In this document: one piece after another, positions 25,539-45,970 of the stretch
How positions within the stretch are numbered: position 1 is the stretch's first letter
Layout: every line of letters starts with the position of its first letter
Virus record (IMG/VR): IMGVR_UViG_3300010885_027340
Location: 1-45,970 of that record
DNA: 45,970 nt
Reading direction: 5' to 3' (one strand)
Source of the DNA: a virus
Notes under the pieces: model-generated
The model's database searches: none
Seen by the model: only the letters and a program-made list of their open reading frames with translations
What the model was told of the DNA's origin: nothing
Position numbers and translations under genes: made by a program

Positions 25539-26621
25539 ATGGCCCTTAATTGTAAGGAGCCATTTTACAATATAGAGATTGCCCACACAGGGGATGTACA
25601 TCTATGTTGTCAATCGTGGCATCCAAAAGTTATAGGAAATTTGCTCGATAGTAGCCTTGAAGAAATTTGGCTTGGTGCAGAAGCTCGAAAAGTACGAGAA
25701 TCTATAATTGATCAAACATATTCATATTGTAACTTAGAAATATGCCCTGCTTGGATCAGTAAAACTATATCGTCTGACGAATTAATAAACACCACCTACC
25801 CGGGCTGGGTAAACAGCACATCATCTACGCAATTTTCAACTACTCATTTTAAATTACCGGAATTAATTAAATTTAGTTTTGATGCCAGCTGTAATTTACA
25901 ATGTCCGTCATGTCGTACTGAAAAGAAACAATTTAATCCTGGAGATTTCGTATACAACAGATCAACGTTAATACTTAATCGCATTAAAGAAGCATATTTG
26001 CTACAGCCATCTGACGCTAAATTTAATTTTACTATTACAGGCAGTGGAGATGCTATAGGTAGTCATTTATACAGAAATTTCCTTATTAGCATTGACGGAT
26101 CTTTATATCCTAATATGGGCATTAACTTGTTAACTAACGGAGTAATGCTCACTGAAAAAGTGATTAATCAGCTAAGTAAAATTCATGCTAATATAAGAGA
26201 CATCACAATTAGTGTTGATGCATCAACAGCTGATACCTACAATATTGTAAGAAAAGGCGGCGACTTTGATCAATTAATAAAAAATATTGATTTTATAAAT
26301 CAATGTCCAACTCTATCACATACAAATTTAAAATACACGTTCGTTGTCCAGCAAGATAATTTTAGAGAGATGCAACCGTTCACAGAATGGTTGTTACAAT
26401 ATCCAAGATCACGTCTTCGATTTACTCGTATGATAAAATTTGGCGCCCAATCAACTGATCATTTTGAGCAACAAAATTTATGGAATCCTGCTCATAAAGA
26501 TCATACTGAGTTTTTTGAATACATAAATCAATCTTGGATAAATCATCCACGAGTGAATTGGTCAAATATCCAGCAAAAACCAACAATGCAAACTTTGCAG
26601 TTTCGGCGAAATATAAATTAA
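25539..26621 (+). CDS. Radical SAM enzyme with N-terminal SPASM-like region
   Basis: 360 aa. The radical SAM cluster motif CxxxCxxC is at C118-C122-C125 ('CNLQCPSC'), followed by 'FTITGSGDAIGSHLYRNFL' (the GGE-like position), 'NLLTNGVML' and 'DITISVDASTADTYNIVRKGGDFDQLIKNI', standard strands of the TIM barrel. Before the barrel, residues 1-70 contain 'GDVHLCCQSWHPKVIGNLLDSSLEEIW' and 'C64...C69', a SPASM/Twitch-like Cys set that normally follows the barrel. The enzyme should cleave SAM to modify a peptide, protein or other substrate. It starts 3 nt after the previous gene behind AAAGGT, at the end of the packaging block. The substrate is unknown. Confidence 0.87.
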   Translation: MALNCKEPFYNIEIAHTGDVHLCCQSWHPKVIGNLLDSSLEEIWLGAEARKVRESIIDQTYSYCNLEICPAWISKTISSDELINTTYPGWVNSTSSTQFSTTHFKLPELIKFSFDASCNLQCPSCRTEKKQFNPGDFVYNRSTLILNRIKEAYLLQPSDAKFNFTITGSGDAIGSHLYRNFLISIDGSLYPNMGINLLTNGVMLTEKVINQLSKIHANIRDITISVDASTADTYNIVRKGGDFDQLIKNIDFINQCPTLSHTNLKYTFVVQQDNFREMQPFTEWLLQYPRSRLRFTRMIKFGAQSTDHFEQQNLWNPAHKDHTEFFEYINQSWINHPRVNWSNIQQKPTMQTLQFRRNIN

Positions 26622-34473: not shown

Positions 34474-34652
34474 TTCCTGTAAGTAACGACGATGCAAATA
34501 AGCTCGAAGTACAAGTCATTCTCAGCGAAGATGATGCCGCAGTATATGTAAAACTGACCGGGTTTGAAAACTTAGAGGACGCAGATATGTATGCAAACTA
34601 CTTAGTAGACCGGTTACCCTTGATGTTATTTGAAACAGAAATACTACACTAA
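34470..34652 (+). CDS. Small acidic protein, unknown
   Basis: 60 aa. 'KLEVQVILSEDDAAVYVKLTGFENLEDADMYANYLVDRLPLMLFE' suggests a small alpha/beta fold. AAGGAGG stands at 34456-34462, a near-perfect ribosome-binding site for this start. The end shares one base with the mini-polymerase gene. Close coupling suggests it may act with that protein; there is no direct evidence. Confidence 0.72.
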   Translation: MIPVSNDDANKLEVQVILSEDDAAVYVKLTGFENLEDADMYANYLVDRLPLMLFETEILH

Positions 34653-35230
34653 TGCCAGATATTGATATTGATTTTTTAGATAGAACACAAGCACTTGATG
34701 TTATCAAACATGTGTCTGCGTCTATTAAAGACGGTGGCACTTTTAAAAAGCACAATACTGGAATATATTGTCATTCTATCCCGTACAATCCAGCCGATGG
34801 ATTAGCCGCAATAGATTACAAAGAAGCAGAAGACCGTGGTTACTTCAAGATTGATTTTTTGAATGTAAGCATATATAAAGATATTAGAGATGAAAATCAT
34901 CTAACAACTTTAATGGAGACTGAGCCACTATGGGACCTTTTAGAGCAGGAAGATTTCAGCAGTTTACTTTTTCACGTAAACGGCCATGGATCAATACTAC
35001 GACAGATGAAGCCGACGAGTATACTCCAACTTGCGGCAGTTTCGGCAATGATAAGACCCGCCAAGCGACATTTGATTGGGGAGAATTGGACCACAGTGAT
35101 GGAGACGATCTGGACAAAGCCCGAGGACGGTGAGTACTATTTTAAGAAGGCTCATGCAGTGGCCTATGCTATGGCTATTGCAGTGCAGATGAACTTAATC
35201 TGCGAAAGTATCAGCTACGGCTACAATTAA
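34652..35230 (+). CDS. Miniature PolIII alpha (DnaE/PolC)-like protein
   Basis: 192 aa. Blocks match the C-family polymerase palm and fingers in order: 'PDIDIDF.DR' (residues 2-11) to DnaE 'PDFDVDF.DR'; 'HNTGIY' (34-39) to the 'HAGGVVI' segment; 'GYFKIDFLNV' (63-72) to 'GLVKFDFLGL'; 'LWDLLEQEDFSSLLFHVNGHGSILRQMKP' to '..FQLES.GM..L....P'; 'LAAVSAMIRPA' to 'LIALVALFRPGP'; and 'FKKAHAVAYAMAIAVQMNLI' to '[20 protein letters not shown]'. The three catalytic Asp positions (D5, D7, D68) are kept. PHP, thumb, tau-binding and OB parts of the 1100-residue enzyme are absent. Activity is unknown. It ends in a TTAA shared with the next converging gene. Confidence 0.85.
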   Translation: MPDIDIDFLDRTQALDVIKHVSASIKDGGTFKKHNTGIYCHSIPYNPADGLAAIDYKEAEDRGYFKIDFLNVSIYKDIRDENHLTTLMETEPLWDLLEQEDFSSLLFHVNGHGSILRQMKPTSILQLAAVSAMIRPAKRHLIGENWTTVMETIWTKPEDGEYYFKKAHAVAYAMAIAVQMNLICESISYGYN

Positions 35231-37705: not shown

Positions 37706-37815
37706 TTAAAATTAAACATTGGTTGTTAACACCGTACTATCGTTATCAAGATCGAAAATTTGTTGAAAAGCGTAGGAAAGAAATGCAAGAACACGATCCA
37801 TATATCTACAAATGA
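37693..37815 (+). CDS. 40-residue basic protein
   Basis: ATG at 37693, 40 codons plus TGA: starts 'MGWLIKIKHWLLTPYYRYQD' and continues 'RKFVEKRRKEMQEHDPYIYK'. AAGGA lies 9 nt before the ATG. It overlaps the primase 3' end by 13 nt and shares ATGA with the carbamoyltransferase start. The pattern (hydrophobic aromatic start, basic helix, acidic-aromatic end) and perfect coupling argue it is real. Small genes of this form occur at this place in related phages. Function unknown; possible membrane or helicase/primase accessory peptide. Confidence 0.72.
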   Translation: MGWLIKIKHWLLTPYYRYQDRKFVEKRRKEMQEHDPYIYK

Positions 37816-39278
37816 TTACCTGGGGAATAAGTGCTAACAGTCATGACGCGGCTCTGGCTGTATTCAAAGACCACGAATTAATGTTTGCCAGTCATAGTGA
37901 ACGATTTAGTGGAAAGAAGAATGATGCTGACTTATCTACCAAGTTGGTAGACTATGCTAAACAGTGGGGAAAGCCCGCTGAAATAGTTTGGTATGAAAAG
38001 CCATTAATTAAGACTATACGTCAGTTGTATGCAGGTCAAGGATTTAATCATAGAAGCAATAACATTAAAAGATATCTTAGCCAATGGAATATTTCTGCAC
38101 CTATAAACTATCAATGGCATCACAAGAGCCACGCCGCCGCTGGCTACTATACCAGTCAATTTAGCGAGGCATGTATTGTAGTTATTGATGCCATCGGAGA
38201 GTTTGAAACATTAACTATCTGGAACGGTAGTAACGAAAAACTACAGCAAGTATATAGTCAGCGTTATCCAGATAGTCTTGGTCTATGGTACAGTGCAATG
38301 ACTCAACGCTGCCATCTAAAACCCAATGAAGAAGAATATATTTTAATGGGCATGGCTGCATACGGTGACCCTAATAAGTTATATCTTCGAATGATGGATG
38401 ATTTCTTTGACACCAGTAATAAGACCATTGTTAAACTAAAACAAAATCTGCATCGTGGCTGTAAAGACTGGGCACCCGACTTAACAGTTAATGATACATT
38501 TGATATTGCAGCCGCAGTACAGGCAGTATACGAATATCAATTTGAACAAATACTACGCAACGCTAAGAAATTAACAAACAGCAATAATGTTATAATTATG
38601 GGAGGATGTGCGCTTAATTGTCTTGCCAATCCTATTGCGTACAAGGTGTTTGACAAAGTTTGGATTATGCCAAATCCTGGAGATGCGGGCAGTAGTGTAG
38701 GTGCAGTATTGGCACAAACAGAAAAACGAATACCCTGGGATACCTGCAGTCTTGGCTACAACATCAACCCTAAAGATTCTATAACTGCCATAGTAGACCA
38801 TTTAGAAACTGAAAAAATCTGCGGACTTGCGCAAGGTCGAGCAGAGTTTGGTCCTCGAGCATTTGGCAATAGAAGTTTGTTAGCCGATCCCAGGGGACCT
38901 GAAATAAAGGACAAAGTAAATGCAATTAAACAACGACAACAATTTAGGCCGTTTGCTCCAATTATTTTGGAGGAACTGGCTGATCAGTACTTTGATCTGT
39001 GTGGCAATAGCAGTGATCATAAGTATATGCAGTTCATCAGTAGGTGTAAGGTTCCTGAGTTATTTCCTGCTATCATTCATCGTGACGGTACTTCTCGTGT
39101 ACAAACCGTACCTGCAGATGGCACCAGAATAAGACAATTGCTTGAAGAATGGAATGATCGTACTGGATGCCCTATGCTGTTGAATACCAGTTTAAATATC
39201 AAGGGTCAGCCTATGGTTAATAACACGGACGATGCATTAGCCTTTGAAGAACATTACGATGTTCGAGTCTTTACTTAA
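37812..39278 (+). CDS. Carbamoyltransferase, NodU/CmcH family
   Basis: 488 aa. The N-terminal ASKHA-type domain has 'ISANSHDAALAVFKDHELMFASHSERFSGKK', 'HHKSHAAAGYYTSQF', 'IVVIDAIGEFETLTIW' and 'IIMGGCALNCLANPIAYKVF', typical of Carbam_trans_N. The C-terminal domain has 'GRAEFGPRAFGNRSLLADPR', 'RQQFRPFAPIILEE' and 'GCPMLLNTSLNIKGQPMVNN', the Carbam_trans_C signature. The family moves a carbamoyl group from carbamoyl phosphate (via carbamoyl-adenylate) to a hydroxyl or amine. The gene lies between primase and helicase, so a modified nucleotide is a plausible acceptor, but the sequence does not identify it. Confidence 0.93.
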   Translation: MITWGISANSHDAALAVFKDHELMFASHSERFSGKKNDADLSTKLVDYAKQWGKPAEIVWYEKPLIKTIRQLYAGQGFNHRSNNIKRYLSQWNISAPINYQWHHKSHAAAGYYTSQFSEACIVVIDAIGEFETLTIWNGSNEKLQQVYSQRYPDSLGLWYSAMTQRCHLKPNEEEYILMGMAAYGDPNKLYLRMMDDFFDTSNKTIVKLKQNLHRGCKDWAPDLTVNDTFDIAAAVQAVYEYQFEQILRNAKKLTNSNNVIIMGGCALNCLANPIAYKVFDKVWIMPNPGDAGSSVGAVLAQTEKRIPWDTCSLGYNINPKDSITAIVDHLETEKICGLAQGRAEFGPRAFGNRSLLADPRGPEIKDKVNAIKQRQQFRPFAPIILEELADQYFDLCGNSSDHKYMQFISRCKVPELFPAIIHRDGTSRVQTVPADGTRIRQLLEEWNDRTGCPMLLNTSLNIKGQPMVNNTDDALAFEEHYDVRVFT

Positions 39279-39304: not shown

Positions 39305-40789
39305 ATGACAACAAGACAAAACGCAGATTACGGATACGATATACAAAAGCTATATCTTGAGATGATGCTTGGAGACGCAGAAACATTTGTGCGATGCCAG
39401 GGCATTTGGGATGACACATTGTTTGATCGAAAGCTACAGCCAGCCGCCAAGTTCTTTAAGGCATACGTAGATGAACACTCTATTATACCCACTGCTGATA
39501 TTATTAATGCAGCCACAGTGAGTAACTTTAAAGTTCCAGAAGGTTTACAAGAAGCACACTATGATTGGTTGTTAACAGACTTTGAAACATTTATTAGACA
39601 TAAAGGTCTTGAGAAAGCTATTCTTGAAGCTGCCGACATGTTGGAAAAAGGTGAGTACGGCACAGTTGAAGATAAGATTAAAAAAGCTGTGCAAATTGGT
39701 TTACAAAAAGACATGGGTACAGATTACTTTGCTGACCCCAGAGCTCGATTAATGAAGATCAAAGATAAAAATGGACAGTTGTCAACAGGCTGGGAAGCAC
39801 TTGATCAAAAGTTATTTGGTGGATTTAATCGCGGCGAGTTGAATATTTTTGCAGGTGGTTCAGGTGCAGGTAAATCGTTGTTCCTTGCTAACCTTGGTGT
39901 TAACTATGCGTTATCGGGTATGAATGTAATCTACCTAACACTTGAATTGAGTGAGGAACTTGTGTCGATGCGTATCGACTCTATGGTCACTGGAATTCCA
40001 ACTCGAGAAGTGTTTAAGCAAATCGACGAAGTTGAGATGAAGGTTAGAGTCATCGGTAAGAAGTCTGGTAGTATGCAGATCAAATATATGCCCAGCGGTA
40101 AAACTGCCAACGATGTACGTGCATATCTAAAAGAATATGAAGTAAAGACAAATAAAAAATGCGATGTATTATTAGTTGACTATCTTGACTTGCTAATGCC
40201 TGCAGGACAAAAGATTTCAGCAGAAAACTTGTTCATCAAAGACAAGTATGTGTCAGAAGAATTGCGTAACTTGGCTATGGAAAAACAATGTATCTTTGTT
40301 ACTGCGGCACAGTTAAATCGTGGTGCTGTAGAAGAAGTTGAGTTTGATCATAGTCATATCTCAGGCGGATTAAGTAAGATTCAAACAGCAGATAACGTGT
40401 TTGGTATATTTACCAGTCGTGCTATGCGTGAGCGTGGCAAGTATCAAATCCAGCTGATGAAGACACGTAGTAGCAGTGGTGTTGGTATGAAAATTGATCT
40501 AAACTTTGATGTAGATACTCTGCGTATTACTAACAGTGATGAACAAAGCGAGGACGCAGGTCCCGGGTCAGTATCGCGTGGTAGTCAGATTATTAACGAT
40601 CTTAAACGTAATAGCACAGTAGGCGAATTTCAAAAGGCACAGCCTAAAGAAGGGTTTGATCCGTTTAATCCTGCACCTAATGCAGGGCGGGATAATCCCA
40701 CAGAAGGCATGATTGTTAAGCCTTCGGCAGCCAAAGTTGAAAGTACTAAACTACGACAATTATTGAATAATTTACCTGAGAATCTCTGA
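39305..40789 (+). CDS. 41: Replicative DNA helicase, gp41-like
   Basis: 494 aa. DnaB-type RecA fold: 'LSTGWEALDQKLFGGFNRGELNIFAGGSGAGKS' with Walker A, 'MNVIYLTLELSEELVSMRIDSM', Walker B 'CDVLLVDYLDLL', and 'IFVTAAQLNR' with 'ISGGLSKIQTADNVFGI' for the later motifs. A helical N-terminal domain precedes it ('LYLEMMLGDAETFVRCQGIWDDTLFDRKLQPAAKFFKAYV'). It is the hexameric fork helicase that partners with the gp61 primase. It has its own sigma70-type promoter with leaderless geometry. The stop is followed directly by a late-type box. Confidence 0.95.
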   Translation: MTTRQNADYGYDIQKLYLEMMLGDAETFVRCQGIWDDTLFDRKLQPAAKFFKAYVDEHSIIPTADIINAATVSNFKVPEGLQEAHYDWLLTDFETFIRHKGLEKAILEAADMLEKGEYGTVEDKIKKAVQIGLQKDMGTDYFADPRARLMKIKDKNGQLSTGWEALDQKLFGGFNRGELNIFAGGSGAGKSLFLANLGVNYALSGMNVIYLTLELSEELVSMRIDSMVTGIPTREVFKQIDEVEMKVRVIGKKSGSMQIKYMPSGKTANDVRAYLKEYEVKTNKKCDVLLVDYLDLLMPAGQKISAENLFIKDKYVSEELRNLAMEKQCIFVTAAQLNRGAVEEVEFDHSHISGGLSKIQTADNVFGIFTSRAMRERGKYQIQLMKTRSSSGVGMKIDLNFDVDTLRITNSDEQSEDAGPGSVSRGSQIINDLKRNSTVGEFQKAQPKEGFDPFNPAPNAGRDNPTEGMIVKPSAAKVESTKLRQLLNNLPENL

Positions 40790-40814: not shown

Positions 40815-42254
40815 ATGACTACAGATTTTTTTAGACGATATATAGATATTCTTGCAGAAGCAGACACAAAAGTCACACCTGACCAAGAAATGCGAGCACG
40901 AGACCTTGCCGCACAGATGGGTGTAGTTGCACCTAATCTTGCAGATATTGAATATAACGCACAGGGCATTGCTATTAAAATTAATGGCGACGCTGTGCCT
41001 AAAACCCTGTACGGTGAAGAAGAACGAAAGAAAATGCAAGGTGCTGCAACTCCACCTGCGCCTGGCGCAACTCCTGCACCCGGTGCAAAACCTGAAGCTA
41101 AACCTGAAGCAGGTGCAACCACTACACCCGCACCATTAGGCGTCTCAGATAAGATAACCGAATTACAAAAAGAACTAAAAGCCAAAGGTGCAGACCTTGG
41201 AACATTTGGCCCAGCAGGCGATGGCATAGATGGTAAACTTGGTCCTAAGACACGAGCAGCCGTTGAGAAATTTCCGGAGATTGCAGCCAAGTATAAAGAA
41301 GTTTTAGGTAGTGGACAAGCCGCATCTCAAGCAGCAAATACCACTGGACCTAAAGTAGACACAACAGATCCTAACGCATTAGCCAACTCACTCGGTGCAA
41401 TTGAAGCTGTTCTTGCCAAGTACAAGATTAAAACTGAAAGCGTTGATTTTGAGCAAGTAATGGTTATGGAAAACATCGGACAGTTTAGTCCGCAAGATCA
41501 AATTGAAATTTGGCGCATCATAACTGAAGCCGACGGCATATATGTACCACCCGACACAGGCGGTCGAGTACGTGATGCAGGCACACAGGCCAGAATGCAA
41601 ATGGCTCGAAATCCTAATCCTGCCATTAGTCGCGCAAATGATCCGTTTGGACAAATAGGTCGTACTGGGTCGGCACCGACAGCTAACACAAGTAAGTGGG
41701 CCAAGTTTGCCAGCAAGTTAGGTGGCGCTAAAGGTATAGGTAAAAAAATTGCAGGCCGAGTAGCTGGATCGGCTTTAGCCGGGCCAGCTGCCGCAGTAGT
41801 AGGTGCTGGCATGTTAGCATGGACAGCATGGGATGTGGGCAAGGCATTATACGATACATTTAGTTCAACTGAGCTTGCCGATCTTGATCCTGCCGATCAA
41901 GCAATTATTAAAAAGAATATGGCTGTGGTGATGCAGTACCAGAAAGATTCTAAACAAATGGCTGCACTATCTCCTGAACTAAAAGCCAGAGTAGAACGTG
42001 CATTAAAAGGCTTAGATGCGTTGGCAGTACAAGCTGGTAGTGAAGAACCTGAAACACAGGCAGCAAGTCCTCAACCAACTGCAAAGTCTGAGCCTACGGT
42101 TACTACTAAAAATGAATTAAGAATTGCTAACGAGCCAGTAGTCCCAGGACAGCCATTAAGTCAAAAACAAATGGCAGTTATGAAAATGTCTATGGACATG
42201 GGTAACAGTTATCCGCCTGAAGTTATGGCGCAGTATAATAAACAGAAAACTTAA
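40815..42254 (+). CDS. Putative internal virion protein with peptidoglycan-binding-like domain
   Basis: 479 aa. The N-terminus 'TDFFRRYIDILAEAD' ends in a possible prohead-protease site (LAE), like T4 capsid-targeting peptides. A Pro/Ala/Gly linker follows (residues ~77-110, 'PPAPGATPAPGAKPE...'). Then 'SDKITELQKELKAKGADLGTF...GIDGKLGPKTRAAVEKF' fits the PG_binding_1 repeat. Residues ~300-355 are a Gly/Ala-rich hydrophobic stretch ('GKKIAGRVAGSALAGPAAAVVGAGMLAWTAWDVGKALY') that could insert into membrane. The late promoter supports a virion role. An ejected cell-wall or membrane-penetrating protein would fit; that is inference. Confidence 0.78.
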   Translation: MTTDFFRRYIDILAEADTKVTPDQEMRARDLAAQMGVVAPNLADIEYNAQGIAIKINGDAVPKTLYGEEERKKMQGAATPPAPGATPAPGAKPEAKPEAGATTTPAPLGVSDKITELQKELKAKGADLGTFGPAGDGIDGKLGPKTRAAVEKFPEIAAKYKEVLGSGQAASQAANTTGPKVDTTDPNALANSLGAIEAVLAKYKIKTESVDFEQVMVMENIGQFSPQDQIEIWRIITEADGIYVPPDTGGRVRDAGTQARMQMARNPNPAISRANDPFGQIGRTGSAPTANTSKWAKFASKLGGAKGIGKKIAGRVAGSALAGPAAAVVGAGMLAWTAWDVGKALYDTFSSTELADLDPADQAIIKKNMAVVMQYQKDSKQMAALSPELKARVERALKGLDALAVQAGSEEPETQAASPQPTAKSEPTVTTKNELRIANEPVVPGQPLSQKQMAVMKMSMDMGNSYPPEVMAQYNKQKT

Positions 42255-42763
42255 TTACTGTTTGGCTTCATATACCAAACGGTAAATGACCAACGTTCGC
42301 CTTCTACAGGTGGGCAAGCTCTATGACGCATGGTAGCAGGCATAAGCACAGCTTCACCCACTGCAAGATCAAACTCGCCTAATTCCGTTTCAAAAACCGC
42401 ACCCGCGGCAGTCTGTAGTGTGCAGGTCAATGTTAGACTACGAACACTGGAACGTCCTTCAGTACCATAGTTATCACGATGCCAGCTGTAGTATTCTCCG
42501 GCACTGTAGCAACTTATCTGCACAGGTTTCTGGAACCATGTCAACTGATATTCTTCATGCCAGGGACGGACTAATTCCCACAAACGATCGCTTTCTTCTT
42601 GATCAATGTCAAGCCAGTATACTGAGTTGTTGCGGCTCTGTCTTTCAGGATCGCGACCCATCACACGGCCTGGTTGTTGTTCAAGCCCCTGTGCTCTATT
42701 GATAATTGATTGACACTGCTCAGGAGTGAACAACGTGAATGGTTGAAGCAATGTTATATTCAT
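42251..42763 (-). CDS. Fe(II)/2-oxoglutarate-dependent dioxygenase
   Basis: 170 aa. The jelly-roll motifs are complete: H95-x-D97 ('YYSWHRDNYG'), distal H147 ('MRHRACPP') and R157 ('GERWSFTVWY'), matching the prolyl-4-hydroxylase/PiuC-like family. 'NNSVYWLDI' and 'ISCYSAGEYYSWH' also fit. It should hydroxylate a peptide or small molecule using Fe(II), O2 and 2-oxoglutarate. Such genes are common in aquatic T4-like phages, with targets mostly unknown. It is the last gene of the right-hand minus-strand cassette and overlaps the upstream GNAT gene by 44 nt. Its stop shares TTAA with the converging virion gene. Confidence 0.9.
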   Translation of the reverse strand: MNITLLQPFTLFTPEQCQSIINRAQGLEQQPGRVMGRDPERQSRNNSVYWLDIDQEESDRLWELVRPWHEEYQLTWFQKPVQISCYSAGEYYSWHRDNYGTEGRSSVRSLTLTCTLQTAAGAVFETELGEFDLAVGEAVLMPATMRHRACPPVEGERWSFTVWYMKPNSN

Positions 42764-43178
42764 AATTTACTGTTTCAAGATTTTCTTGAAGTGTACGTGC
42801 GCCATTACCGTGATGGAATTTACGGGCCATATCTGTCTTGGGACTCAAGGTGACAAACACACGTATGTTAGGTCTTTCTTTTTGTAACCACTGTTGCGCA
42901 GCCTGTATTAAGTTACGACCACTACCTCGTGAGTAACTCCATATGGTGTAGAACACAGCATGATCAGTGCCAGAACGATCGTTAAGTTCACTCACTGATT
43001 TTGGCACTGCACCAGTATAAGTAACACAGGTCACAGCACCTGCTTTGCCATTATCAAGCCAAACAAATATGTCTGCTTGATCGTGTAGTCGTGCCGCTGT
43101 GGGTATTTCTGGACGTACTGGGTCGTCTTTGATTAGGTCAATGTAGGGATCGTGATCGTTGGCAATTCGGTGAAGCAT
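42720..43178 (-). CDS. GNAT-family acetyltransferase-like protein
   Basis: 152 aa. 'DHAVFYTIWSYSRGSGRNLIQAAQQWLQKERPNIRVFVTLSPKTDMARKFHHGNGARTL' contains the acetyl-CoA loop in R-x-x-G-x form ('SRGSGRNLI', 84-90) and the usual following helix and strand. 'IFVWLDNGKAGAVTCVTYTG' gives the central strands. The fold predicts transfer of an acyl group to an amine. The acceptor is unknown. AGAGGA before the ATG is one of the few good ribosome-binding sites in this cassette. Confidence 0.75.
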   Translation of the reverse strand: MLHRIANDHDPYIDLIKDDPVRPEIPTAARLHDQADIFVWLDNGKAGAVTCVTYTGAVPKSVSELNDRSGTDHAVFYTIWSYSRGSGRNLIQAAQQWLQKERPNIRVFVTLSPKTDMARKFHHGNGARTLQENLETVNYEYNIASTIHVVHS

Positions 43179-43224
43179 GATTTCCTCTGCGTGTAATACA
43201 TACTTATCACAAAGGAGATTAAAC

Positions 43225-43806
43225 TTAGATTACGCTGAGAGTAATGTAGCTTTCTTGATGACTTTTTGTAGGAGAAGCCACAGTGTGATTAATGTCACGC
43301 TGTTGAAAGTTCCACTCCAGGCCGGGAATTTGATGTCCAATGCACAAGAAGGGAACACTGCCAAAGTTCATATCTTCTGTGATCTTACCCTGTTGACGTA
43401 GGTGTATTTCCACAGGTTCTTTTTCAAAGCAGATGCAGAAGCCAGTTTGCCAACCCTGATCAATGGCCCACAAGGCAAGATCACTGTAGGCTTGCCCTAT
43501 GAGATACTGGTCTTCTGAACTGTGATAGTGTGTGGGTGGCAGTATATAAACCACACAAGGTGCCAACAGCTGACTGTTTTTACGTTCCACATAGTCGGGA
43601 TACTTGGCCTTGTCCAGTGCAGGAATAACACTTTGATCGTATATGTACTCTATGGTACCCTTGTCTTGTAGGCACTCAGTGTGATAGCCAAGGTCTCGCA
43701 TGTAGTGTAGTCTGGCCATCATAGCAGTGACAAACTCAGAATCAGCAACCTCTGTAAAATCAAAGCTGCGATGTGTGTGACTTAGTAGTTGATATTTGTT
43801 AGACAT
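43225..43806 (-). CDS. Nitroreductase-like protein, tentative
   Basis: 193 aa. 'NSQLLAPCVVYILPP' and 'YLIGQAYSDLALWAIDQGWQTGFCICFEKE', followed by 'FGSVPFLCIGHQ', resemble the FMN-binding core of the nitroreductase fold (AP.., G.A..NL.L.A...G..TG..., P......G). The N-terminal helices ('FTEVADSEFVTAMMARLHYMRDLGY') are not typical. FMN-dependent redox chemistry is plausible but not sure. The start overlaps the end of the upstream mosaic gene by 8 nt; a 46-nt gap with no evident signal precedes the GNAT gene. Confidence 0.65.
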   Translation of the reverse strand: MSNKYQLLSHTHRSFDFTEVADSEFVTAMMARLHYMRDLGYHTECLQDKGTIEYIYDQSVIPALDKAKYPDYVERKNSQLLAPCVVYILPPTHYHSSEDQYLIGQAYSDLALWAIDQGWQTGFCICFEKEPVEIHLRQQGKITEDMNFGSVPFLCIGHQIPGLEWNFQQRDINHTVASPTKSHQESYITLSVI

Positions 43807-44599
43807 TTACTGTTACCTTAATGTAGTCTTCACTCCAGCGAGCCTGTATTACCGGAGGTTGATGACTGAGACCATGTTCACGTACAATTAGAAAACTGCT
43901 GTACAAGAACTCAAGCCAAGCACGGCCGCCTGGTTCTACAGGACGATCTAACAGAGCTTGTCGTGTATAGGTAGCTGGTCCGGGATATTCACGGCCCGCA
44001 AGTACCCAGTCCAGTAACAGTGTTTTGATCCATTGATGTATGGCCAACTCCTGCTCAGTACGACTCACAGCATTGCCATCCTTGTCCCAAAAGCAAGAAG
44101 CCACAAATGCAGTTTTTTCATTAGATGCCTGTGCAAGATCACCCATGAATGCATGTAGCATGAAGTCCAGATCTCTGTGGCACTTTTGATGTGCAAACTC
44201 ATAGTCTTTAAAGGGCGCATGGCCTTCACGTATCTGCTGATAGATCCAAGCCACAGTGACTTCTTTGATCCAGGGTTTAGAAGCTGCCACAGCGGCTGCG
44301 GCACCTCCGTATACTTGATGTGTGCGTTCCGCTATGGTACGTTCCACTTGATGTGAGAGTCCCTGCTCATCAAGCCAATAGCAGAGTTCTCCAACGGCTA
44401 ATCCCGTATGAAACAGCGCAGTCCCATAGAGCATCTCAGGATCAAGAAACGCAGTACGGCTGCGATCAAAGAACTCCAGTGTGGGCGTAAATGTTGCAAT
44501 GGCCTTAGTCTGGCCCTGCGCAAGGTCTACTTTAAAGCAGACTTGATTTTGGCGTGCTGGCGCCAAGTGTATGATTTCAGCAAGTTGATCTATTAACAT
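43799..44599 (-). CDS. Mosaic protein with a virion-type CRD helix module
   Basis: 266 aa. Residues ~132-200 ('YEFAHQKCHRDLDFMLHAFMGDLAQASNEKTAFVASCFW' and onward to 'WIKTLLLDWVL') follow a repeat module seen in virion proteins of T4-like cyanophages ('KC.RDiGy.vDA...DL..G.N..T...a..Y'). Residues 1-85 ('LAEIIHLAPARQNQVCFKVDL', 'LYGTALFHTGLAVGELCYWLDEQG') weakly resemble a nitroreductase N-terminal half. The next gene resembles the other part of that fold. The start lies 6 nt after a TAAATA box. No catalytic residues can be named. Confidence 0.7.
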   Translation of the reverse strand: MLIDQLAEIIHLAPARQNQVCFKVDLAQGQTKAIATFTPTLEFFDRSRTAFLDPEMLYGTALFHTGLAVGELCYWLDEQGLSHQVERTIAERTHQVYGGAAAAVAASKPWIKEVTVAWIYQQIREGHAPFKDYEFAHQKCHRDLDFMLHAFMGDLAQASNEKTAFVASCFWDKDGNAVSRTEQELAIHQWIKTLLLDWVLAGREYPGPATYTRQALLDRPVEPGGRAWLEFLYSSFLIVREHGLSHQPPVIQARWSEDYIKVTVNV

Positions 44600-44603
44600 A
44601 TAA

Positions 44604-45242
44604 CTATTTACTCGTAGAGTTCCACAGGCTGTTATTTTCTGCCATGGCCACTATGCTGTGAAAATCATATTCACAGAGCTTAACACGTAGGAATACTCTG
44701 GGCTCTGCACCGTTTCGAACTCCATGTATGATCTGTCCGTCAAACATGGCAGGATGCTCTGTACTGTAGTTGTAGGTATAGATAAGATCTTGACTGCGTA
44801 CTACATTATACTCAACACCTTTACGCAAAGTCTGCCCGGCTGGAGGATTATAAAAATCAATGCCCGCAGGAGCAGTTGAGGGTAAGATTGGATACATGAT
44901 GCCACAGCCCATGTACTTGTCAGTGTGTGCTTTGAGCTTGTACCAAGGAGGATAGATTAGGACATCTACATCTGTACGGCCAAGTTTGGGATAAAATGCC
45001 CAAGGTGATAACAATGCCTTAATTATAGGATCATCACGCATGGCCGAGCCATAAGCAGTGTCGTAGTCCAGAGTCTTAAAACCCGTGCCTGAGCCAGAGC
45101 CACGAAACTCAGGCCCACCCGGTGGTAAACGTGCATTCATCCAATCTGAGAAGAATACTTCAAGATGTGCATGTTGTTGATACCATGCGTCCAACTGAGA
45201 TCTATTGTAGTTAATGTTGGTAAATTCGTAATGGTGCATCAT
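44604..45242 (-). CDS. Second Fe(II)/2OG oxygenase-like protein
   Basis: 212 aa. 'YPPWYKLKAHTDKYMGCGIMYPILPS' gives the HxD pair (H106, D108); 'MFDGQIIHGVRNGAEPRVFLRVKLCEY' gives the distal His (H173) and basic residues (R182, R186) that would bind 2-oxoglutarate. The order matches the double-stranded beta-helix family, close to asparaginyl/prolyl hydroxylase-like phage proteins. It differs strongly from the oxygenase at 42251, so it is not a recent duplication. It overlaps the cupin gene by 4 nt. The target is unknown. Confidence 0.82.
   Translation of the reverse strand: MMHHYEFTNINYNRSQLDAWYQQHAHLEVFFSDWMNARLPPGGPEFRGSGSGTGFKTLDYDTAYGSAMRDDPIIKALLSPWAFYPKLGRTDVDVLIYPPWYKLKAHTDKYMGCGIMYPILPSTAPAGIDFYNPPAGQTLRKGVEYNVVRSQDLIYTYNYSTEHPAMFDGQIIHGVRNGAEPRVFLRVKLCEYDFHSIVAMAENNSLWNSTSK
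44605..44610 (-). promoter_or_regulatory. Late-type promoter, leaderless geometry
   Basis: Minus-strand TAAATAGTTATATG: the box ends 6 nt before the A of the ATG at 44599, and it overlaps the stop codon of the upstream oxygenase gene. Confidence 0.55.
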
Positions 45243-45868
45243 TGTAGATAAGTGCGAGTTTTCATGGGATTATTCTCATCTCTGGGACCGTCTTCGCTGT
45301 CAGGATGAAATACCATAAGACTCATATCAGACTGATCAGTGCAGAAACGATGCAGAACATGTCGATCTAATACAAAGTGATCCCCTGCAGTCAATACTGT
45401 GCTGACAAGTTGTCCGTTGTGCAGGTAGTCAGCACGACCTTGACCTGACAGTACCAGACCAATACGCAGTGACGGATGTGTGTGCATAGTCTGCTTTATG
45501 CCCCTGGGAAAGTAGAGATAGTTTAAACAAGGATCGCCATTACGAGCAGCAGTGACAACTACAGAGTTTGAGCAGCCATCTATGTAACTGAGATCACCAG
45601 GTTGACCAGCTGCGACAATGGCCGCAGCCTGAGCCAAGTGTAGTCCGGGCATGTGTATAATCACAGCACTGCCCTGTAGTCTTCCCGCAGTGACCACAGC
45701 ACCAAAAGCGCCTCTTGCGGATAAAGAAGGAGTAGTAAGTTCAGCACTGTCAGCAATGACAAAGTAAGTACCCGTTTGGTCTAAGAAGCGTTGCTCAGTA
45801 GTGTTGCGCACTACATCAACAGTGTAGCGATTACGTATGTTGTGATTTTGATTAAGTGTTAATGTCAT
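45239..45868 (-). CDS. Cupin-fold protein
   Basis: 209 aa. The C-terminal half carries a cupin barrel: motif 1 'MHTHPSLRIGLVLSGQG' with H129 and H131 (the Glu usually following is not seen), motif 2 'AGDHFVLDRHVLHRFCTD' with H173. The N-terminal ~110 residues are of unknown fold ('GTYFVIADSAELTTPSLSARGAFGAVVTAGRLQGSAVIIHM'). It could bind a metal and act as an oxygenase, isomerase or ligand sensor. It is the first gene of the right-hand cassette, with a TAAATA box 5 nt before the ATG. Confidence 0.82.
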   Translation of the reverse strand: MTLTLNQNHNIRNRYTVDVVRNTTEQRFLDQTGTYFVIADSAELTTPSLSARGAFGAVVTAGRLQGSAVIIHMPGLHLAQAAAIVAAGQPGDLSYIDGCSNSVVVTAARNGDPCLNYLYFPRGIKQTMHTHPSLRIGLVLSGQGRADYLHNGQLVSTVLTAGDHFVLDRHVLHRFCTDQSDMSLMVFHPDSEDGPRDENNPMKTRTYLQ

Positions 45869-45935: not shown

Positions 45936-45970
45936 ATAATTTATAGAGTAATCTACGCAGTTAACTAAAC

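Follow-up and report, generated by a model that had tools for sequence, protein, structure and literature searches.

In the 45,970-base IMG/VR record IMGVR_UViG_3300010885_027340 (the window, meaning the whole stretch analysed), six minus-strand genes occupy what is almost certainly an accessory slot next to a DnaB-like helicase gene, and two of their products, NTR and MOS, probably form a single flavin mononucleotide (FMN) enzyme of the nitroreductase type, split into two subunits, the smaller of which carries a phage fibre repeat. A third gene belongs to a widespread phage family resembling malonyl-CoA decarboxylase (MCD). An initial annotation had read the array as one late pathway gained jointly by horizontal transfer; the split enzyme with a captured virion repeat, together with the MCD-like family, is the more specific account that we put in its place.

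The window is a fragment (~46 kb) of a larger virus, most likely a jumbo myovirus related to PA5oct and T4, since its terminase shares 55.6% identity with the enzyme of the Pseudomonas jumbo phage PA5oct and 42–52% with those of other jumbo myoviruses. The host setting of PA5oct-related jumbo phages is aquatic bacteria. Relatives were collected with the DnaB helicase as query, giving 80 loci, and terminase scans also yielded relatives.

Anatomy of the six-gene array

The interval 42251–45868 is filled by six minus-strand open reading frames (ORFs), whose transcription runs from the cupin through Oxy2, MOS, NTR and MCD-like to Oxy1 (Table 1). The tight packing with overlaps, as initially annotated, was confirmed: three junctions overlap (by 4, 8 and 44 nt in transcription sense), and the other two leave gaps (4 and 46 nt). 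The array abuts the 3′ end of a plus-strand gene (40815–42254), itself downstream of the DnaB helicase gene. Homologues are known for five of the six ORFs, at 27–64% identity, and the ratio of nonsynonymous to synonymous substitution rates (dN/dS) among sister phages is 0.05–0.15 for Oxy1, MCD-like, NTR and MOS, the four that were testable; because of this strong purifying selection, these four are genuine genes.

Table 1. Coordinates of the array and its flanking features in the window (aa, amino acids; kaa, thousand amino acids; 2OG, 2-oxoglutarate; GNAT, GCN5-related N-acetyltransferase).
Feature	Position	Strand	Evidence
NodU/NolO-type O-carbamoyltransferase	37812..39278	+	PF16861 E 8e-50; phrog_1601 E 4e-100
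DnaB-like replicative helicase, anchor of the variable slot	39305..40789	+	phrog_19 E 1e-64
Oxy1, 2OG-Fe(II) oxygenase, 170 aa	42251..42763	-	PF13640 E 8e-11; phrog_61 E 3e-19; dN/dS 0.05–0.07
MCD-like GNAT-fold protein, 152 aa	42720..43178	-	PF05292 matches; 4ksa profile match; conserved dyad
NTR, nitroreductase-fold large subunit (putative), 193 aa, without P-x-[KR]-Q-N element	43225..43806	-	AlphaFold model; PDB matches; hhalign
MOS, 266 aa: putative small subunit (~residues 1–95, APARQNQVCFK motif), fibre-repeat domain, C-terminal strand	43799..44599	-	
Fibre-repeat domain within MOS, ~residues 96–250	43850..44314	-	Shared with virion proteins of 1.5–6.9 kaa and with L181
Oxy2, probable second 2OG-Fe(II) oxygenase, 212 aa	44604..45242	-	Motif only
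Cupin-domain protein, 209 aa	45239..45868	-	Cupin_2 E 3.8e-6, 26.9 bits against a cut-off of 27.2

NTR and MOS as a candidate two-subunit flavoenzyme

The AlphaFold model of NTR, confident for most of the core (residues 20–160) and poor at both ends, matched many nitroreductases in the PDB at a probability of 1.00 (best E 1.4e-5), including two cyclodipeptide oxidase filament structures. When NTR was compared by hhalign with L183, a phage nitroreductase of 221 aa that matches PF00881 above cut-off, the match had a probability of 96%, and the L183 segment TQCPSKQNAAFYR found no partner in NTR. The counterpart of the PSKQN in L183 is located in MOS as PARQN, within the MOS start HLAPARQNQVCFK, and a further nitroreductase, L181, has NGTPTKQNVNFFK at the equivalent place. 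In addition, PARQNQ in MOS resembles the P-S-x-x-N-x-Q type of FMN-site motif, which is not present in NTR. Because NTR is without the motif segment and MOS carries it, one two-subunit FMN enzyme is predicted, to which MOS would provide the P-x-[KR]-Q-N element missing in NTR, and we regard this assignment as fairly likely.

The two genes are adjacent in every locus found, namely six helicase-side loci and L169–L173, which represent two genomic sites. In L169–L173 the pair lies elsewhere in the genome, after a UvsX-like region (named by eye), and MOS is represented by a free protein of 101 aa whose gene overlaps that of NTR by 4 nt (8 nt in the window). In the clade of the window, MOS ranges from 245 to 276 aa, with a domain of ~155 residues between residue 95 and the final β strand; its AlphaFold model has a predicted local distance difference test score (pLDDT) of 83, with the small subunit modelled as α+β. 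Thus the nitroreductase-like and mosaic proteins, initially listed as separate members, both exist, but they form a linked pair. When their profiles were compared directly, MOS and NTR did not match, and a recent duplication is accordingly not claimed as the origin of the pair. The NTR profile found no cellular relatives among the genome contigs searched.

The pair shares with the nitroreductase superfamily (PF00881; NfsB, BluB, L183) the NTR fold, as judged by model and hhalign, and the P-x-[KR]-Q-N element in MOS; unlike those enzymes, the phage enzyme would be divided in two, with neither part reaching the Pfam profile and with a fibre repeat inside the small subunit. The cyclodipeptide oxidase AlbA/AlbB is likewise encoded by an overlapping gene pair, for a nitroreductase-fold protein and a small subunit, and single-chain fusions are reported (PMC11055893). 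The phage pair also consists of two overlapping genes, for ~190 and 100 aa; however, AlbB is a four-helix bundle (PF19585), whereas the small subunit of the phages has an α+β model and no PF19585 match. Membership of the cyclodipeptide oxidases was rejected on this small-subunit fold, and no cyclodipeptide synthase was seen.

A fibre repeat in two nitroreductase-like arrangements

The domain inserted in MOS matched L181 at E 1e-32 in a one-sequence search. L181 (L181:1456–2580, in the 383-kb relative G001) encodes a 374-aa single-chain nitroreductase with the repeat between its halves, the N-half matching phrog_18935 at residues 16–70, the repeat spanning 74–188 and the C-half matching PF00881 above cut-off at 251–339; L210 contains a copy of it at 85% identity. 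With L181 as query, matches were obtained in 23 of 43 contigs, chiefly in giant ORFs (the longest 6,904 aa) and with at most 18 matches per contig, and such giant repeat proteins carry the PHROGs labels short tail fibre, tail fibre and virion structural protein. The MOS model retrieved cyanophage tail and structural proteins from BFVD (best E 1.2e-6, probability 1.00). MOS and L181 thus each hold one copy of the repeat of the giant tail-fibre and virion proteins of T4-like cyanophages (phrog_4527, phrog_5342 and phrog_701), where it forms tandem arrays, whereas here it lies inside enzymes. As judged from these matches, one fibre repeat is found in two nitroreductase-like arrangements, a single chain and a subunit of a split pair. 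L211–L229 were considered as additional fused nitroreductases and rejected, being giant fibre proteins. At L087:13276–21446, a giant fibre-repeat gene (>2,700 aa) begins ~1.3 kb past the MCD-like gene and is a possible local source of the MOS repeat.

The explanation that we tentatively favour overall is a fibre-docked split flavoenzyme with exchangeable oxygenases, housed in the accessory slot. NTR and MOS would assemble into the FMN enzyme, with the PARQN element coming from MOS, and the fibre repeat would allow packing of this enzyme against fibre proteins or against the factors that assemble them. Its redox step, either dehydrogenation or reduction, would take place on the fibre or on a moiety attached to the fibre, and the Fe(II)/2OG oxygenases would add hydroxyl groups to the same substrate. 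The MCD-like protein would probably act separately on malonyl-CoA, either feeding acetyl-CoA or draining a host fatty-acid precursor. That the enzyme acts on the fibre or virion is possible, though somewhat doubtful. The broader proposal, that jumbo phages took their own fibre repeat into nitroreductase-type flavoenzymes in two arrangements for fibre docking, and that fibres or their decorations are redox-modified during assembly, is rather unlikely. If true, it would mean that a structural repeat of phage fibres has come to serve an enzyme as its targeting or assembly module, and that phage virions may bear enzymatic redox modifications nobody has sought.

Several observations weigh against the fibre-docked split enzyme. 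The PF00881 profile matched L181 and L183 only and neither NTR, MOS nor the L169 forms; the N-terminal part of MOS, or its motif alone, gave no significant profile match to nitroreductases; and the Foldseek match of MOS to 3eof is weak (probability 0.99 with E 0.28). The small subunit in L169–L173 has no fibre repeat, which would make the repeat dispensable for basic activity. A suggestive link of the pair to radical-SAM (S-adenosylmethionine) chemistry, on the other hand, speaks for the proposal: among 24 contigs, twitch radical-SAM matches number 13 and 16 in the two long contigs that bear the pair, versus 0–4 in the others, although this correlation comes from two contigs only, of unequal length.

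This count also speaks for a different reading, in which NTR and MOS, the oxygenases and radical-SAM enzymes jointly modify a small molecule, glycan or peptide made by the phage and the repeat is only a structural spacer. Radical-SAM genes flank the L181 nitroreductase on either side and adjoin MOS in L083 and the MCD-like gene in L158, and sugar-nucleotide-like ORFs (by eye) are near in G001. However, the slot of the window and those of most sister phages have no radical-SAM gene, the window showed neither a precursor peptide nor a scaffold enzyme, and a spacer role leaves the presence of the same fibre repeat in two nitroreductase arrangements unexplained. We place this reading on the unlikely side, below the fibre-docked enzyme.

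T4-like phages rich in radical-SAM genes are already on record (PMC5332604). Arrays of twitch/SPASM-type radical-SAM genes were located at about 220–237 kb of G001:C1 (L204, L205) and about 26–77 kb of G023:C1, and the G001 array adjoins ORFs resembling glycosyltransferases, sugar-nucleotide enzymes and ThyX, as judged by eye. The L183 gene (L183:1402–2067; G001:C1:360812–361333) encodes the third, canonical nitroreductase of G001, and an adjoining 456-aa ORF resembles, by eye, a B12-binding radical-SAM protein. The window itself encodes, at 25539–26621, downstream of the terminase region, a radical-SAM protein with an N-terminal SPASM domain that is related to the twitch radical-SAM family.

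Contents of the slot among relatives

Substantial variation was observed in the genes that follow the helicase. Read outward from it, the slot holds Oxy1-MCD-NTR-MOS-Oxy2-cupin in the window, Oxy1-MCD-NTR-MOS-radicalSAM in L083, Oxy1-MCD-NTR-MOS in L088 and L085, MCD-NTR-MOS in L082 (to which L084 is identical in sequence), MCD-NTR-MOS-Oxy2 in L086 and MCD-radicalSAM in L158, while L248 has the MCD-like gene plus Oxy2 in opposed orientation and without NTR and MOS. The most frequent member is the MCD-like gene, which 47 of the 80 relatives carry downstream of the helicase, on the minus strand in the clade of the window and on the plus strand elsewhere. Five distinct sister phages carry the NTR+MOS pair, with Oxy1 in three of them, Oxy2 in one and the cupin in none. 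Since the contents differ among relatives, the six genes do not travel as a block. Oxy1, Oxy2, the radical-SAM gene and the cupin are exchangeable neighbours, and we hold with high confidence that the region is a modular slot for accessory genes, bounded by the DnaB helicase and by a GC-rich minus-strand arm.

The same distribution would fit six auxiliary genes unrelated to one another, with different substrates in host or phage and nothing in common but a permissive insertion slot. MCD-like, NTR+MOS, Oxy1, Oxy2, radical-SAM and cupin genes are distributed independently, and 2OG oxygenases are present in 8 of the 24 contigs searched, the window counted. Nevertheless, NTR and MOS are inseparable, the short overlaps suggest co-translation, and the type of oxygenase in the slot recurs, an Oxy1-like gene being present in L083, L085, L088 and L110; we consider this reading unlikely. 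Near the MCD-like gene at L242:1194–1799, a 201-aa ORF with HxD...H...R (by eye) may add a third type of 2OG oxygenase to the slot.

The MCD-like family

The protein initially taken for a GNAT shows similarity to MCD. Among 23 aligned members, DPVRP, YT.WS, TLSP (Ser112), FHxxNGA (His122) and N..Y are invariant, and 13 of the 23 matched PF05292, the C-terminal domain of malonyl-CoA decarboxylase, at E ≤ 0.01 (best 2.7e-7), the window member scoring 22.6 bits against a cut-off of 23.2. The catalytic dyad of RpMCD is Ser312/His389, and such a dyad sets MCD and CurA apart from ordinary N-acetyltransferases (PMC3701320). Against the PDB, the family profile matched the MCD structure 4ksa (E 1.7e-5), its Ser and His aligning with the TLSP Ser and the FHLGNGA His at chain positions 306 and 383, both offset by 6 from RpMCD Ser312 and His389. 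The constant offset would fit if 4ksa is RpMCD.

The phage protein thus resembles the MCD catalytic domain and the GNAT-like domain of CurA in its PF05292 similarity and its Ser/His dyad. It differs from MCD in its length of ~150 aa, in having no N-terminal helical domain and in having no large helical insert, the Ser and His motifs being separated by 10 residues rather than 77; because these parts are missing, full MCD membership was not given and the name MCD-like was chosen. Judging from the dyad, decarboxylation of malonyl-CoA by this protein is possible, though somewhat less likely than not. The tailoring role initially proposed keeps a plausible part, redox chemistry and hydroxylation, while acylation becomes doubtful because the GNAT-fold protein bears a decarboxylase-type dyad.

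A profile scan of the IMG/VR viral contigs retrieved at least 596 MCD-like relatives, and a recognisable helicase lies within 3 kb of the gene in 45 of 79 loci checked. When five of the array proteins were searched by tblastn against isolated phages, the sole match was an MCD-like relative in Pelagibacter phage Mosig, where the gene is located between ThyX and a gp59-like gene. No publication on a phage MCD was found in the open-access literature searched. A widespread jumbo-phage family with the MCD catalytic dyad would offer a testable route to phage control of host lipid precursors.

Oxygenases and cupin

By profile and motif, Oxy1 is a typical 2OG oxygenase, with H95-x-D97...H147...R157 (iron triad and 2OG-binding Arg) invariant in five homologues. 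Oxy2 is probably a second one; H106-x-D108...H173...R182 is conserved, and homologues are present in L086 (49% identity) and L248 (47%). Oxy2 matched no family profile, and a sequence search of the PDB with the Oxy2 profile gave nothing but antibody light chains (E ≥ 0.08), which were discarded. Comparison of Oxy1 with Oxy2 gave no significant match, and neither of them, nor MOS, matched any viral contig as a single-sequence query. The cupin has the ligands H129-x-H131 and H170/H173, with Arg at the position of the usual Glu ligand; no relatives of it were found in phages, in 45 related contigs or in any other collection searched. Most of the family assignments of the initial annotation have held, with the GNAT corrected to MCD-like.

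Base composition and late promoters

The guanine–cytosine (GC) content of the array is 45.8%, versus 39.5% for the other genes of the window, and at four-fold sites the values are 0.37 and 0.25 (Mann-Whitney p = 4e-4); the codon-usage distance of the array is the largest of 41 gene windows compared. The richer composition noticed by eye in the initial annotation is therefore real and extends to codon use, whereas the transfer that it was taken to hint at found no support. In every relative with sequence there, the DNA downstream of the array has a GC content of 0.45–0.47, against 0.38–0.39 on the helicase side, and in G001 a ~20-kb arm at about 80–98 kb has 44–48.5%, dropping to 37–40% on the helicase side. 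Since the shift is a regional property of the whole genome arm, it gives no support for transfer of the array, and a horizontal origin deduced from composition was rejected.

Two exact copies of the T4 late box TATAAATA are present in the window, below chance expectation, and none lies in the array, where two late-type boxes had been annotated; late expression is accordingly unsupported. A sequence with one mismatch to the T4 late box, TATAAATT, lies near 45942 and was not counted as evidence. A late six-gene pathway acquired jointly by horizontal transfer would agree with the distinct GC content and codon use of the array. Nevertheless, that shift is common to the downstream DNA of relatives, exact late boxes are lacking, and the members are distributed independently across relatives, the outcome named at the outset as refuting joint gain; we regard such a pathway as extremely improbable.

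Carbamoyltransferase and other neighbouring genes

The place before the helicase is taken either by a full 488-aa carbamoyltransferase or by a 315–317-aa form matching its N-terminal part only (window; L082, L083, L084, L087, L097). The families PF02543/PF16861, to which the window enzyme belongs, include 5-hydroxymethylcytosine (5hmC) carbamoyltransferase, and the DNA-modifying members co-occur with a thymidylate-synthase/hydroxymethylase homologue (PMC8670742). This likeness, together with the position of the carbamoyltransferase and MCD-like genes in the replication region, would suit a DNA hypermodification system in which modified bases receive further groups from the carbamoyltransferase, the GNAT-fold protein and the oxygenases. 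However, the relatives of the window differ from the 5hmC system in being found without the hydroxymethylase partner: PF00303 matched none of 24 contigs, including those of 383 and 364 kb, while control genomes were positive in 9 of 14. Hypermodification was downgraded because this partner was not found, and the GNAT-fold protein is itself MCD-like; we consider it very improbable.

The plus-strand gene that adjoins the helicase (40815–42254) encodes a protein of 479 aa with a weak match to a peptidoglycan-binding domain (PF01471, E 0.001) and is patchy among relatives. In addition, a 192-aa ORF at 34652–35230 starts with MPDIDIDFLDR, which recalls a motif of the bacterial DNA polymerase III alpha subunit.

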